Positions 37,488 to 41,427 of a stretch of DNA of 47,984 nucleotides are shown piece by piece. A model generated the notes under the pieces. The model was not told where the DNA came from, made no database searches, and saw only the letters and a program-made list of their open reading frames with translations. The stretch comes from an uncultured Granulosicoccaceae bacterium (GTDB lineage Bacteria > Pseudomonadota > Gammaproteobacteria > Granulosicoccales > Granulosicoccaceae), in NCBI GenBank assembly GCA_937931165.1, contig CALHCI010000147.1:1-47984 (forward strand). The letters run 5' to 3'. Position 1 is the stretch's first letter. Each line of letters opens with the position of its first letter. A program made the position numbers and the translations under genes.

Positions 37488-37919
37488 CTAGGCGTCGGCC
37501 GCTCTTGCCTCAAGCCTTGGTCGCAGCGCTTCAAGTGAATAGCCGGCCTGCGCTGCTATAGCCAGAATTTCATCTATGGGACGTTTTCCGGCCTCACTTA
37601 ATGCCCACAACACCGTGCACCGTGTGCCGGAACGGCAATAGGCGAGCACAGGACCGGAAAGGCTTTCCAGGTGATCGGCAAAGGTGTCGACGTCATCGTC
37701 GCTGATGATACTGCCGTTTACCGGCTGAAATTCGCTGATCAGGCCTTGCGCATCGATCGCATTTTGGACTTCACGGTAAGTTGGCTGTGTGACTTCTTCG
37801 TAGTCCGGACGGTTGCAAAGCACCGATTTAAACCCTTGAGATTTGACAGTCTCAAGATCACCCGCTACCAGTTGCGGAGCGACAGAAAGTTGCTCGGTAA
37901 GTTTACGGATGTCGGCCAT
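37488..37919 (-). CDS. DUF442 / TIGR01244-type phosphatase- or sulfurtransferase-like protein
   Basis: 144 aa from ATG 37919, with AGGA five nt upstream; a longer frame to 38102 has no such site. Residues 1-110 match the dual-specificity phosphatase-like DUF442 fold: GFKSVLCNRPDYEE near residue 35 and the catalytic Cys loop in LAYCRSGTRCTVLWAL near residue 102. Members occur alone or fused to metallo-hydrolases handling sulfide; here no such partner is adjacent. Divergent from the GFA-family gene. The family call is secure; the reaction is not. Confidence 0.88.
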   Translation of the reverse strand: MADIRKLTEQLSVAPQLVAGDLETVKSQGFKSVLCNRPDYEEVTQPTYREVQNAIDAQGLISEFQPVNGSIISDDDVDTFADHLESLSGPVLAYCRSGTRCTVLWALSEAGKRPIDEILAIAAQAGYSLEALRPRLEARAADA

Positions 37920-38136
37920 TGGATTCCTGTTGTGTTCGGGCGAAGGCGTGCCTGCGGAAACTTTTATCCGTGCAATATTAACACATTCATGTGACACCCA
38001 AGCGAAAGGCAAACAGTGAGATCTGCACGAAACACCGGCGCGCAACACCCTGGCTTCCATCACACACAGATTTTGCTTGTCCGCCAGAACGCACTTGGCC
38101 ACACTGTGCGCTCACAACAAACACAGAGAGTAAAAC

Positions 38137-38559
38137 ATGGCAGAAATAAGCGGCGGGTGCATTTGTGGCGCACTGACCTACAAAGCCAACGGTGAGCCAC
38201 TTCGCATGGGGCAGTGCCACTGCAAACATTGTCAGCGTGCGTCAGGTACGGGCCACATGTCACTGGCGTTTTTTAAAAAAGAAGATGTAAAGATTGAAGG
38301 TGATTTCACCGAGTACGCAGCAGAGGCAGACAGCGGCAACCATAATATCCGCGCATTCTGCCCGACCTGCGGTGCCAGAGTATTCAGTCGCAACTCGGCC
38401 AACGACGCTGTTGTCGGCATTACTGCTGGCTGCGCGGACGAGCACGACTGGTTCGAACCACAGTTTATCGTCTACAACAAAGACAAACCCGCCTGGGACC
38501 AAATGGACAGCAATGTCCCGGCGTTCGAAGCGATGCCTCCACCGAAGCCGGCGAGCTGA
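38137..38559 (+). CDS. GFA/CENP-V-family zinc protein
   Basis: 140 aa. Zinc-binding Cys motifs in order: GGCICGALTYKA near the N-terminus, CHCKHCQRASGTG, and AFCPTCGARVFSR, as in glutathione-dependent formaldehyde-activating (GFA) proteins. The enzymatic role is not proved for most members. Start ATG 38137 directly follows GAGAGTAAAAC. Single gene. Confidence 0.92.
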   Translation: MAEISGGCICGALTYKANGEPLRMGQCHCKHCQRASGTGHMSLAFFKKEDVKIEGDFTEYAAEADSGNHNIRAFCPTCGARVFSRNSANDAVVGITAGCADEHDWFEPQFIVYNKDKPAWDQMDSNVPAFEAMPPPKPAS

Positions 38560-38771: not shown

Positions 38772-39803
38772 GTGAGTCAAACCAAACTACCAAGTAAGTT
38801 CAATCGTCACCCATTGCGTACCGCGGTCATCGCGGGGTCAGTGGCCATGACAAGTGCATTTGCACTGTCAGCCTGTAACAGCCAGCCAACCACCGATGGT
38901 TCTTTACCTGTAGCCGCAAAAAAAGAAATCAAGGCAGCAGCCAAAGCTTGTAATCCGTGTAATCCATGCAACCCTTGCGCTGCCAAAGCATGCAATCCGT
39001 GCAACCCTTGTGCTGCCAAAGCCTGTAATCCGTGCAACCCTTGTGCTGCCAAAGCCTGCAATCCGTGCAACCCTTGTGCTGCCAAAGCCTGTAACCCGTG
39101 TAACCCTTGTGCAGCCAAAGCATGTAATCCGTGCAACCCGTGTGCTGCCAAAGCCTGTAATCCGTGCAACCCGTGTGCTGCTAACGCTTGCAATCCATGC
39201 AACCCTTGCAACCCATGTGCAGCCGGCGGTATTAAAGCTGCTGACTTCGTTCGACCCGCTGGTGTCTCACTTGACGCCGCAGCGATGGCAGGTCTTGCTG
39301 CCACCGGTGAACAACTTTGGAATGACACTTCACTGAGTTCAAACGGCCTGGCATGTAACTCCTGCCACAATGGCGGTGCGTTGCTGAATGCCTCTTTCGC
39401 TAATCCGTACCCACACGAAGTAGCCATGCCTAAGCAACAGGCAGGTGTTGCTGCGGTAGACGTCGATGAGATGGTTAACTTCTGCATGCTCGCGCCAATG
39501 CAGGCTGCACCACTGGCATGGAACTCAAAAGAGATTCTCGCCCTGTCAGCTTACACACTGGAACTGCAAGCCGGTTTTAATCCTTGTGCTGCTAAAGCAG
39601 TCAACCCTTGTGCTGCGTGTAATCCGTGCAACCCTTGCGCTGCCAAAGCATGCAACCCGTGCGCCGCGAAAGCTTGTAACCCATGTGCGGCAAAAGCATG
39701 CAATCCATGTGCAGCCAACGCCTGTAATCCATGTGCTGCCAAAGCGTGCAACCCTTGTAATCCCTGCAACCCATGCAATCCATGCGCTGCAAAAAGCAAC
39801 TAG
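38772..39803 (+). CDS. c-type cytochrome lipoprotein flanked by two CNPC repeat arrays
   Basis: 343 aa from GTG 38772, with GGAG 7 nt upstream. A lipoprotein signal ends at FALSAC (Cys35). Residues 60-149 are an array of CNPC units with AAKA spacers: an 11-residue [11 protein letters not shown] unit six times, bordered by [10 protein letters not shown] blocks, 26 Cys. Residues about 150-268 form one cytochrome c domain with heme site CNSCH (195-199), possible axial Met in VAMPKQ or ML near 219-243, and [20 protein letters not shown] at its end. Residues 270-338 are a second array with 18 Cys. It should be exported, lipidated and heme-loaded. Metal storage, disulfide network or electron wire are all open. 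First gene of an operon-like set with an FGE-like gene. Confidence 0.9.
38949..39218 (+). repeat. 33-bp coding tandem repeat encoding CNPC units (array 1)
   Basis: Period 33 bp within the cytochrome gene, copies near identical with synonymous changes at Cys, Asn and Ala codons (for example TGC/TGT, AAT/AAC). A second shorter array lies at 39579-39785 with mixed 24-bp and 33-bp spacing. Tandem identity implies recent expansion or homogenisation. Confidence 0.9.
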
Positions 39804-39812
39804 TCTGAGTGC

Positions 39813-39870
39813 ACTAAACGATCTTGTTTAGTCTGTTAAGACGAGGGGGCTCTGGTTTCAGAGCCCTCTT
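39813..39870 (+). promoter_or_regulatory. Two tandem hairpins at the start of the FGE-like gene
   Basis: Hairpin 1: ACTAAAC / GTTTAGT (39813-39832), its loop and 3' arm holding the TTG start codon of the FGE-like gene. Hairpin 2: GGGCTCTG / CAGAGCCC with GTTT loop (39847-39866), followed by TCTTTG. They lie in the gap and signal-peptide codons after the cytochrome gene and could attenuate transcription or limit translation of the downstream genes. Confidence 0.6.
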
Positions 39871-40684
39871 TGCCTCTGCTGTAATGTGTACCAGTGCCTG
39901 TGCCGGCATCACCACACCGGAAGTGATCACCGTGCCAGCAGGTAACTACCGGTTTGGGTCCTCCTCCGAAGAACGGGAATACGCCTACCAACTCGATGAA
40001 CGCGCATACGGCCACTCAGTCACCCGGAATTCCGGCTGGTACGCCAACGAACCCGCCTTGCAAACCCTTAGTCTTGGTGAATATCACATCACCACAACAC
40101 CAATTACCAACCGTCAGTACCAGCAATTTGTACTTGCGACAGGACACCCGGCACCAAATGTCGACAAACAGACGTGGCAGGGCTACGGACTGGTACACCC
40201 GTTTTCAAGAACCGCCCGGCATCGCTGGAACGGCAATAATTTTCCTGATGGTCGTGAGGCGCATCCAGTAGTTTTAGTCAGCCACAACGACGCAACCGCG
40301 TATGCTAAATGGATGAGCAAAGAAACCGGTGAACACTGGCGGCTGCCCACCGAACACGAATGGGTAAAGGCCGCACGCGGACCGAATGGCAGTGTATTTC
40401 CATGGGGCAACGAGTTCGATGCTGAAAAGCTCAATAGCCATGACTCGGGACCTTTTGATACAGTACCGGTCGGGTCGCGCTCAACATCCAGCCCCTTCGG
40501 TCTGGTTGATCCTGCAGGCCAGGTGTTCGAATGGATTCTGTCACCGTCGACAGCCAAAAGAAGCTGGGTCAAGGGTGGTTCCTGGGACGACAAAGGCTGT
40601 GGTGTATGCCGCCCTGCGGCACGACACAGCAGACCAAAAACAATCAAACACATATTGATCGGCTTTAGATTGGTAAAAGAATGA
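39824..40684 (+). CDS. Secreted formylglycine-generating-enzyme-like (SUMF1/FGE-sulfatase) protein
   Basis: 286 aa from TTG 39824, which yields a signal peptide (LLRRGGSGFRALFASAV, cleavage near ACA-G). The remainder is the FGE-sulfatase fold: ITVPAGNYRFGSS, TPITNRQYQQF, HPVVLVSHNDATAYAKWMS, WRLPTEHEWVKAARGP, DPAGQVFEWILS, WVKGGSWDDKGCGVCRPAAR and HILIGFRLVK, in family order. In the active-site region C259 and C262 remain, while the first Cys position of true FGE appears to be Trp254. So it may not be a standard copper-dependent formylglycine maker. Being exported, it could act on the neighbouring CNPC protein. No ribosome site precedes the TTG; ATG of the next gene overlaps its stop (ATGA). 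Confidence 0.87.
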   Translation: MFSLLRRGGSGFRALFASAVMCTSACAGITTPEVITVPAGNYRFGSSSEEREYAYQLDERAYGHSVTRNSGWYANEPALQTLSLGEYHITTTPITNRQYQQFVLATGHPAPNVDKQTWQGYGLVHPFSRTARHRWNGNNFPDGREAHPVVLVSHNDATAYAKWMSKETGEHWRLPTEHEWVKAARGPNGSVFPWGNEFDAEKLNSHDSGPFDTVPVGSRSTSSPFGLVDPAGQVFEWILSPSTAKRSWVKGGSWDDKGCGVCRPAARHSRPKTIKHILIGFRLVKE

Positions 40685-41427
40685 ACACCGGTAATCACCC
40701 TGAAATAGACTTGCTAGAGGCCCTGACGACAGAGCAGCTAAACACCATGCTGCTGGCGGGCGCACAAATCAAAAACTGCTATCGACTGTTATTAAAAAAC
40801 GAAAGCTACGGCAATGTTGTGCGTGAAGTGCTGAAAGACCAGGGGCAGTTTATTGAGTTTGATCACTACCCCAAAGGTGATGTACACGATAGTGAAACGC
40901 ATTGTCAGTATTTTTACCATGCACATCGCGGCATCAACGGCGAGAACGGCCACTTCCATACCTTTTTGCGCGCCAAGGGCATGCCTGAAGGCGTATCACC
41001 CGCTCCCTACGATGGCGATACCGAATGGCCCAGCGGGGATGATGCGCTAAGCCATATTGTTTGCATCTCCATGGACCCGAAAGGCTACCCGATCGGGCTT
41101 TTCTCAACCAACCGCTGGGTTACCGGAGAGACGTTTTATAGCGCCACTGACGTCATATCAATGCTCGATAAATTTGAAATGGACATGCTGTATCCGTCAT
41201 GGCCGGTCAACATCTGGATTACTTCAACGATGCGCCTGTTCCGCCCGCAGATAGAACAACTGCTACGGCAACGCGATGTCTCAATTGAGGAATGGCGGAG
41301 CAAACATCCTGACTCTGATGTTTATGAAGACAGAGACCTGGAAATCACCAGTCAACAGACGATTGATGTTGACACGCAACTGCAACTGATTACCAACATA
41401 TTGCAAAGCCGCGGGGCGCTGCACTAA
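40681..41427 (+). CDS. Unknown His-rich protein, third gene of the CNPC cluster
   Basis: 248 aa, no signal peptide or membrane helix, so probably cytosolic. Residues 74-95 carry the most striking motif: HCQYFYHAHRGINGENGHFH, with five His (74, 80, 82, 91, 93) in H-x-H patterns that could bind a metal. Later: SHIVCISMDPKGYPIGLFST and a C-terminal helix ITSQQTIDVDTQLQLITNIL. I recall uncharacterised proteins with a similar AHRG...HFHTFLR core but cannot name the family with confidence. The gene overlaps the FGE-like gene by 4 bp, so the products are probably made together. Confidence 0.85.
   Translation: MNTGNHPEIDLLEALTTEQLNTMLLAGAQIKNCYRLLLKNESYGNVVREVLKDQGQFIEFDHYPKGDVHDSETHCQYFYHAHRGINGENGHFHTFLRAKGMPEGVSPAPYDGDTEWPSGDDALSHIVCISMDPKGYPIGLFSTNRWVTGETFYSATDVISMLDKFEMDMLYPSWPVNIWITSTMRLFRPQIEQLLRQRDVSIEEWRSKHPDSDVYEDRDLEITSQQTIDVDTQLQLITNILQSRGALH

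Follow-up and report, generated by a model that had tools for sequence, protein, structure and literature searches.

A Sec-exported cysteine-repeat precursor and its DUF6969 partner: a candidate two-part system apparently undescribed in bacteria

What could be the purpose of an exported lipoprotein in which long runs of cysteine repeats flank a single heme, and which protein acts on it? The question is raised by three adjoining genes of an uncultured Granulosicoccaceae bacterium (Table 1), located in what we call the window, the whole stretch of 47,984 nucleotides analysed here (contig CALHCI010000147.1, positions 1 to 47,984). Gene 1 encodes the array lipoprotein, gene 2 a protein with the fold of formylglycine-generating enzyme (FGE), and gene 3 a member of the DUF6969 family. 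We propose, with a probability of about 0.5, that genes 1 and 3 represent a two-part system, in which a Sec-exported Cys-repeat precursor is served by a dedicated cytosolic DUF6969 protein as maturase, resembling the bufferin systems without their multinuclear non-heme iron oxidase (MNIO). The system is widespread in bacteria and apparently undescribed; no mention of DUF6969 or PF22308, nor of CNPCNPC or NPCAAK, was found in the literature searched.

An original prediction made from the DNA alone had given the gene coordinates and a 4-bp overlap between genes 2 and 3 (40681-40684), and both were borne out on re-reading the sequence. Its description of gene 1 as encoding a CNSCH lipoprotein cytochrome with CNPC arrays of 26 and 18 Cys agrees with our direct count. 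The gene 1 product starts with GTG, as does its closest relative (L057; such labels denote retrieved genomic loci of relatives), and comprises a signal with lipobox, a first NPC array, a TsdA/SoxA-type domain and a second NPC array. Here and in the other Cys-motif precursors, lipobox and Sec signals were assigned by eye. The 48 Cys in 343 residues are the lipobox Cys35, 26 in array 1, Cys195 and Cys198 of the heme site, Cys238, and 18 in array 2; the protein has a single CxxCH (CNSCH). DNA matching CNPCNPC was counted 14 times in the genome of the window (4.86 Mb, 94.89% complete), in all 14 cases inside the array gene, and not once in the reversed control. An 11-residue unit is present in six copies, and all 44 pairwise nucleotide differences between them fall on the third base of a codon, a pattern that selection on the protein repeat would produce. 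We rejected an origin of the arrays by chance or low complexity on the basis of the genome pattern counts, the codon-position differences and the control windows described below.

A four-sequence profile run against 84,980 species genomes found 91 cytochrome relatives, including proteins from Marinobacter, Gallionella, Aromatoleum and Sedimenticola, and the best 80 of the 91 were analysed. Arrays, defined by at least three PC in the frame, are present in 71 of these 80 and missing from nine; they are mostly of the NPC type, with GPC-type repeats in four loci (L065, L068, L069 and L072). DUF6969 is encoded at the same locus in 61 of the 71 array loci, in 51 of them at most 1.5 kb from the cytochrome. 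Whole genomes were searched for the 18 cases without DUF6969 at the locus and for L113 and L070 (20 genomes), which placed DUF6969 elsewhere in the genome for four more array loci (L080, L085, L089 and L125). Counting locus and genome together, DUF6969 accompanies 65 of 71 array-bearing relatives, including L070 where it exists only as a 70-aa fragment, versus one of nine array-less ones (Fisher 9e-7, uncorrected for kinship; the nine array-less relatives include seven related halomonads). At L113, the sole array-less genome with DUF6969, a free KCAPK-repeat peptide abuts the DUF6969 gene. Among the cytochrome relatives, DUF6969 tracks the array and not the heme.

Two variants of the cytochrome were seen along the way. 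Acidic EAEGEA-type repeats replace the Cys array in seven halomonads (L122, L124, L130, L132, L134, L135 and L136), and the search for DUF6969 in these seven genomes gave no match. The array cytochrome of L046/L129 has an internal stop in its N-terminal array frame, which may reflect a broken gene or an assembly error.

The same pairing appears when DUF6969 is taken as the starting point. PF22308 was matched in 26 of 274 genomes of the class and in 20 of 398 of the phylum, both counts including the window genome. This yielded 45 further DUF6969 loci, chosen regardless of arrays; as controls, 80 windows, each 4.75 kb long, were taken from 20 of these genomes. A frame at most 2 kb from DUF6969 with at least three (N/S/A/K)PC(G/A/S) within 60 residues was found in 31 of the 45 loci and in none of the 80 controls (Fisher 8e-19). 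With at least three NPC the counts were 21/45 versus 0/80, and with at least four PC 30/45 versus 2/80. Other exported Cys-repeat peptides were recognised by eye at eight more loci (L045, L047, L048, L053 and L167-L170), bringing those with an exported Cys-repeat partner to 39 of 45 (31 by pattern and eight by eye). The heme-free array peptides sit directly upstream of DUF6969. Arrays of the NPCAAK type have a Cys at every sixth residue. A divergent group (L051-L056, L033, L034, L036, L173 and L175) has common precursors, with MGSALGLAAIAVAIDHTRHRLPEP followed by SPCGL-like repeats, that mostly overlap or abut DUF6969. On plasmids, where 168 records match DUF6969, five named loci were read, and a Cys-repeat open reading frame (ORF) adjoins DUF6969 in four of them (Skermanella mucosa, Ciceribacter thiooxidans, Sinorhizobium meliloti and Burkholderia glumae). 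A search of the phage collection for DUF6969 gave no match. The array-DUF6969 partnership is very probably real, and the linkage is centred on DUF6969, not on the FGE-fold protein.

Two of the plasmid loci have a wider gene content. On S. meliloti pSymB (L202), genes for an annotated sulfurtransferase and YeeE/YedE, an APC-repeat ORF and DUF6969 form one run, and on the B. glumae plasmid (L203) genes for a KCAPK-type peptide, DUF6969, thioredoxin, CcdA, a sigma factor and an arsenosugar-type glycosyltransferase lie together.

The gene 3 product matches DUF6969 (PF22308) with an E-value of 2e-78 and 263.1 bits against a cut-off of 27. The original prediction had called it a His-rich protein of unknown family; His-rich it is, and the family is a named one, of unknown function. 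Residues H62, H80, H82, H91, H93 and H125 are invariant in 55 of 55 alignment rows (the window and 54 loci). Position 89 is H in 48 rows and N in seven, including the window. Most relatives read EHGHFH in the His motif, and HxH...HGHxH is found in 44 of the 45 DUF6969-only loci, the window itself having N for the first H of HGHxH; the sole exception, L165, reads HRHREGEIGHFH, and no peptide was found at that locus. In the confident AlphaFold model (pLDDT, the predicted local distance difference test, 91.8; pTM, the predicted template modelling score, 0.90), the secondary structure assigned by DSSP puts the invariant His in or beside neighbouring strands, where they may form a metal site. Foldseek searches with the model gave no match at E≤0.001 in the Protein Data Bank (PDB; best E 0.56, probability 0.14) or among viral models. 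The heme domain of gene 1 also has no match at this threshold, yet its matches have high probabilities; the verdict on the DUF6969 fold therefore rests on the low probabilities. Because no hydrophobic N-terminus is visible by eye, DUF6969 is most likely cytosolic, and its partners carry export signals by sequence.

We hypothesize that the first part of the system would be a protein or peptide that is exported by Sec and repeats a Cys motif, most often (N/S/A/K)-P-C-(G/A/S), and the second DUF6969, with its invariant His set and without an export signal. DUF6969 would act as a metal-dependent maturase on the Cys motifs before export; less likely, it would serve as a metal- or sulfur-loading chaperone. 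The periplasm would thereby receive a multivalent soft-ligand array. In the form seen in the window, a lipid anchor would hold this array, and a TsdA/SoxA-type heme would split it in two; electrons could pass between that heme and thiol or sulfur chemistry taking place on the arrays. The FGE-fold protein would be an accessory in a few lineages. A more far-reaching version, which we put forward tentatively, is that DUF6969 constitutes a new class of maturase of the kind acting on ribosomally synthesized and post-translationally modified peptides (RiPPs), a His-ligated metalloenzyme of new fold that modifies Cys in the NPC/SPC-type repeats carried by Sec-exported peptides and proteins, and that in the window a heme with His/Cys ligation joins the modified arrays in one redox-active device for sulfur or soft metals.

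Several observations count against the two-part proposal. Whole-genome searches found no DUF6969 in six array-bearing genomes (L081, L083, L098, L108, L118 and L127), of which L118 is from an isolate and the other five are titled metagenome-assembled genomes. No peptide was recognised in six of the 45 DUF6969-only loci (L043, L044, L157, L162, L165 and L176), and no Cys-repeat ORF lies next to DUF6969 at the plasmid locus of Azospirillum lipoferum. The (N/S/A/K)PC(G/A/S) pattern was chosen after the peptides had been seen; the loci share ancestry, and some are common to both sets (e.g. L172 and L114). The repeat motif varies (NPC, SPC, CAAT, GCC and CGAK). A test for at least three PC hits 35 of 45 DUF6969 loci and 18 of 80 controls, and this loosest test is therefore not specific. 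MNIO genes are near DUF6969 in 2/45 loci versus 1/20 controls, and MNIO adjacency is therefore not enriched. The predicted fold of DUF6969 gives no hint of enzyme activity, and its role as a maturase is putative.

Some of these exceptions have features of their own. Two of the array-bearing genomes without DUF6969, L118 and L098, are Motiliproteus with long NPC arrays. The exact DNA pattern for NPCAAKNP was present in one of the six peptide-less genomes, that of L162, where DUF6969 and the arrays lie at the edges of two different contigs.

The original prediction had suggested that the exported FGE-like protein may modify or mature the arrays. The gene 2 product indeed matches FGE-sulfatase (PF03781, 8e-41) over residues 31-285 of 286, as do members of the SUMF1-EgtB-PvdO family, but it belongs to a GCGVCRPAAR subfamily of its own, is exported by sequence, and touched six NCBIfam models with scores that fall well short of their cut-offs. 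The stretch GGSWDDxGCGVCRPAARHxR, with its GCGVC, is found in 10 of 10 aligned proteins of the subfamily. HMMER alignments with solved FGEs stop before the region in which true FGEs carry the two catalytic Cys of their copper site. The arrays, unlike the substrates of true FGEs, are devoid of the CxPxR sulfatase motif (0 matches in the array protein), as the original prediction had already noted.

The expected linkage of the three genes in other genomes was recovered, with the order cytochrome, FGE, DUF6969 in seven of the 80 cytochrome loci (L057-L062 and L066), and the array-DUF6969 pairing is commoner. With a BLASTP E-value below 1e-20 as criterion, window-type FGE is present in eight of the 80 loci and was not found in 72, some loci being short; the copy in L108, about 2.8 kb from the cytochrome, is cut by the contig end. 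FGE also precedes DUF6969 in L159 and L161, two genomes of a single genus that belongs to the phylum but to a different class; at a distance of 1.2-1.4 kb, the opposite strand encodes an NPCAANPC peptide. In L037 the FGE gene is truncated and in L063 a remnant is left, while the array and DUF6969 frames stay open. On plasmids, 397 records match the FGE protein, all below 60% identity. The FGE-fold protein is a recurrent but dispensable accessory, which may reside in the periplasm. A role as the array-maturing factor is highly improbable, the usual partner of the arrays being DUF6969. Thiol or thiophilic-metal chemistry, the class of function raised in the original prediction, is still a leading one.

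The heme domain, whose family the original prediction had not given, matches SoxA-TsdA_cyt-c (PF21342) with 35.2 bits against a cut-off of 27. Foldseek with its model (pLDDT 95.4) placed TsdA and SoxAX at the top, with probabilities up to 1.00 and E-values of 0.015 or worse, hence no match at E≤0.001; rows 1-12 are all TsdA or SoxA, at probabilities of 0.98-1.00. Cys238 (Cys87 of the alignment) and the Cys and His of CxxCH are invariant in 64 of 64 rows (the window and 63 of the 80 loci), and the profile places Cys238 opposite a Cys of SoxA 1h31 (E 0.0034). In SoxA and TsdA the corresponding Cys ligates the heme, and the alignment suggests His/Cys ligation in the window domain too. Many TsdA/SoxA enzymes have two heme domains; in contrast, the window protein has a single CxxCH, flanked by Cys arrays. 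Another type of heme domain may carry arrays as well: in an NPC array protein of L138 (213-1304, minus strand), the C-terminus resembles cytochrome P460 (PF16694, 1.8e-4, below the cut-off).

Neighbouring genes were grouped by single-linkage clustering over the 80 cytochrome loci, and one member of each cluster was identified by Pfam. Clusters of extracytoplasmic function (ECF) sigma factors occur in 34 loci, carboxymuconolactone decarboxylase-like proteins in 25, YeeE/YedE, VTT/pyridine-nucleotide oxidoreductase and DUF302 in 23 each, thioredoxin in 14, DsbD_TM/CcdA in 13, MerR-type proteins in eight and MerT in six. Near DUF6969, BLASTP found YeeE/YedE in 16 of 45 loci and ECF sigma factors in five of 45, versus 0/20 control regions for either, and the heme domain in seven of 45.

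The YeeE/YedE and DUF302 neighbours, together with the TsdA/SoxA kinship and its invariant extra Cys, favour a role in sulfur metabolism. Unmodified array thiols could then carry periplasmic sulfane sulfur as a relay, loaded or oxidised by the heme, with DUF6969 working in the cytosol alongside YeeE/YedE sulfur import. YeeE is a thiosulfate uptake protein (PMC11073785), and an annotated sulfurtransferase gene adjoins YeeE/YedE in S. meliloti. We consider such a relay rather unlikely, given the scarcity of the heme domain at DUF6969-only loci and the modest Foldseek E-values of that domain; moreover, no YeeE was seen beside the window genes, and its two matches lie elsewhere in the genome.

The Mer neighbours and adjacent bufferin-type operons favour a role in metal handling. 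In its simplest form, the arrays would be unmodified thiol chelators that buffer Cu(I), Hg(II) or similar ions, kept reduced perhaps by the thioredoxin and DsbD_TM/CcdA proteins, and DUF6969, with its six invariant His, a metal chaperone or sensor. This explanation is unlikely: a buffer of free thiols would have no obvious need of a co-encoded cytosolic partner, only a minority of the neighbours relate to metals, and MNIO does not exceed controls. Metallothionein-like Cys-rich proteins have dense Cys repeats, as do the window arrays, which differ in being exported, mostly in an NPC/SPC context, and paired with DUF6969.

The two-part proposal has its closest parallel in bufferins and oxazolins, the MNIO-modified, Sec-exported Cys RiPPs. 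Both arrangements have a signal-bearing Cys-motif precursor beside a cytosolic protein, and sigma factor, NrsF and DoxX neighbours occur around DUF6969 too. Unlike in bufferins, the partner belongs to another Pfam family without a convincing fold match, the motif is mostly of NPC/SPC type, and the arrays may be fused to heme domains. Since the arrangement matches Sec-exported RiPPs in all but the partner, which is no MNIO, we consider it about as likely as not that it works like a bufferin system, and do not file it as one. In the window genome (94.89% complete), MNIO (PF05114) had no match. At L040 and L170, genes for an array-type peptide, DUF6969, a bufferin-like peptide, MNIO, a DUF2063-type protein and DoxX are side by side; three L170 genes and the L040 MNIO were assigned by Pfam, the peptides (including the name Buf1) by eye and the rest by BLAST. 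In Skermanella, DUF302, sigma-70 and NrsF genes stand behind DUF6969 and the NPC peptide; Buf1 bufferin clusters contain sigma factor and NrsF genes according to the MNIO landscape paper (PMC12452194), in whose searched passages DUF6969 and NPC do not occur. In a Gallionella array-cytochrome locus, an MNIO gene (PF05114; L074:9705-10604, minus strand) is about 7.7 kb from DUF6969.

The pairing gives a functional handle on DUF6969 and predicts its substrate, and, as it consists of two small genes, it is directly testable. Should DUF6969 prove to modify Cys, there would be a further enzyme class, beside MNIO, to produce exported metal- or sulfur-binding peptides. Candidate hosts are environmental: Marinobacter, Gallionella, Aromatoleum, Sedimenticola and Sinorhizobium.

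Table 1. Positions of the array lipoprotein, its parts and the two following genes in the window
Feature	Position	Strand	Basis
Array lipoprotein with one heme c (343 aa)	38772..39803	+	family search, 80 relatives
Array 1 (residues 60-149, 26 Cys)	38949..39218	+	sequence count
SoxA-TsdA_cyt-c domain PF21342 (CNSCH residues 195-199, Cys238)	39306..39557	+	Pfam, alignment, model
Array 2 (residues 272-338, 18 Cys)	39585..39785	+	sequence count
FGE-fold protein PF03781, export signal by sequence, accessory of few lineages	39824..40684	+	Pfam, alignment
DUF6969 PF22308, N-terminus not hydrophobic, putative maturase or chaperone acting in the cytosol on Cys-repeat precursors	40681..41427	+	
DUF6969 His motif, His80 to His93, window HAHRGINGENGHFH	40918..40959	+	alignment

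Scans of the operon for promoters and terminators gave site numbers not above those in shuffled sequences. A conserved ELTQxPCQFLESExG protein, exported as judged by eye, is encoded in L064 (9112-9585) and 16 other loci, often adjoining DUF6969; the two members tested had no Pfam match. Beside the operon of the three genes in the window lie a TIGR01244 sulfur transferase gene and a GFA-family gene (37488-38102, minus strand, and 38137-38559, plus strand), which are also present in L057, L060 and L062.

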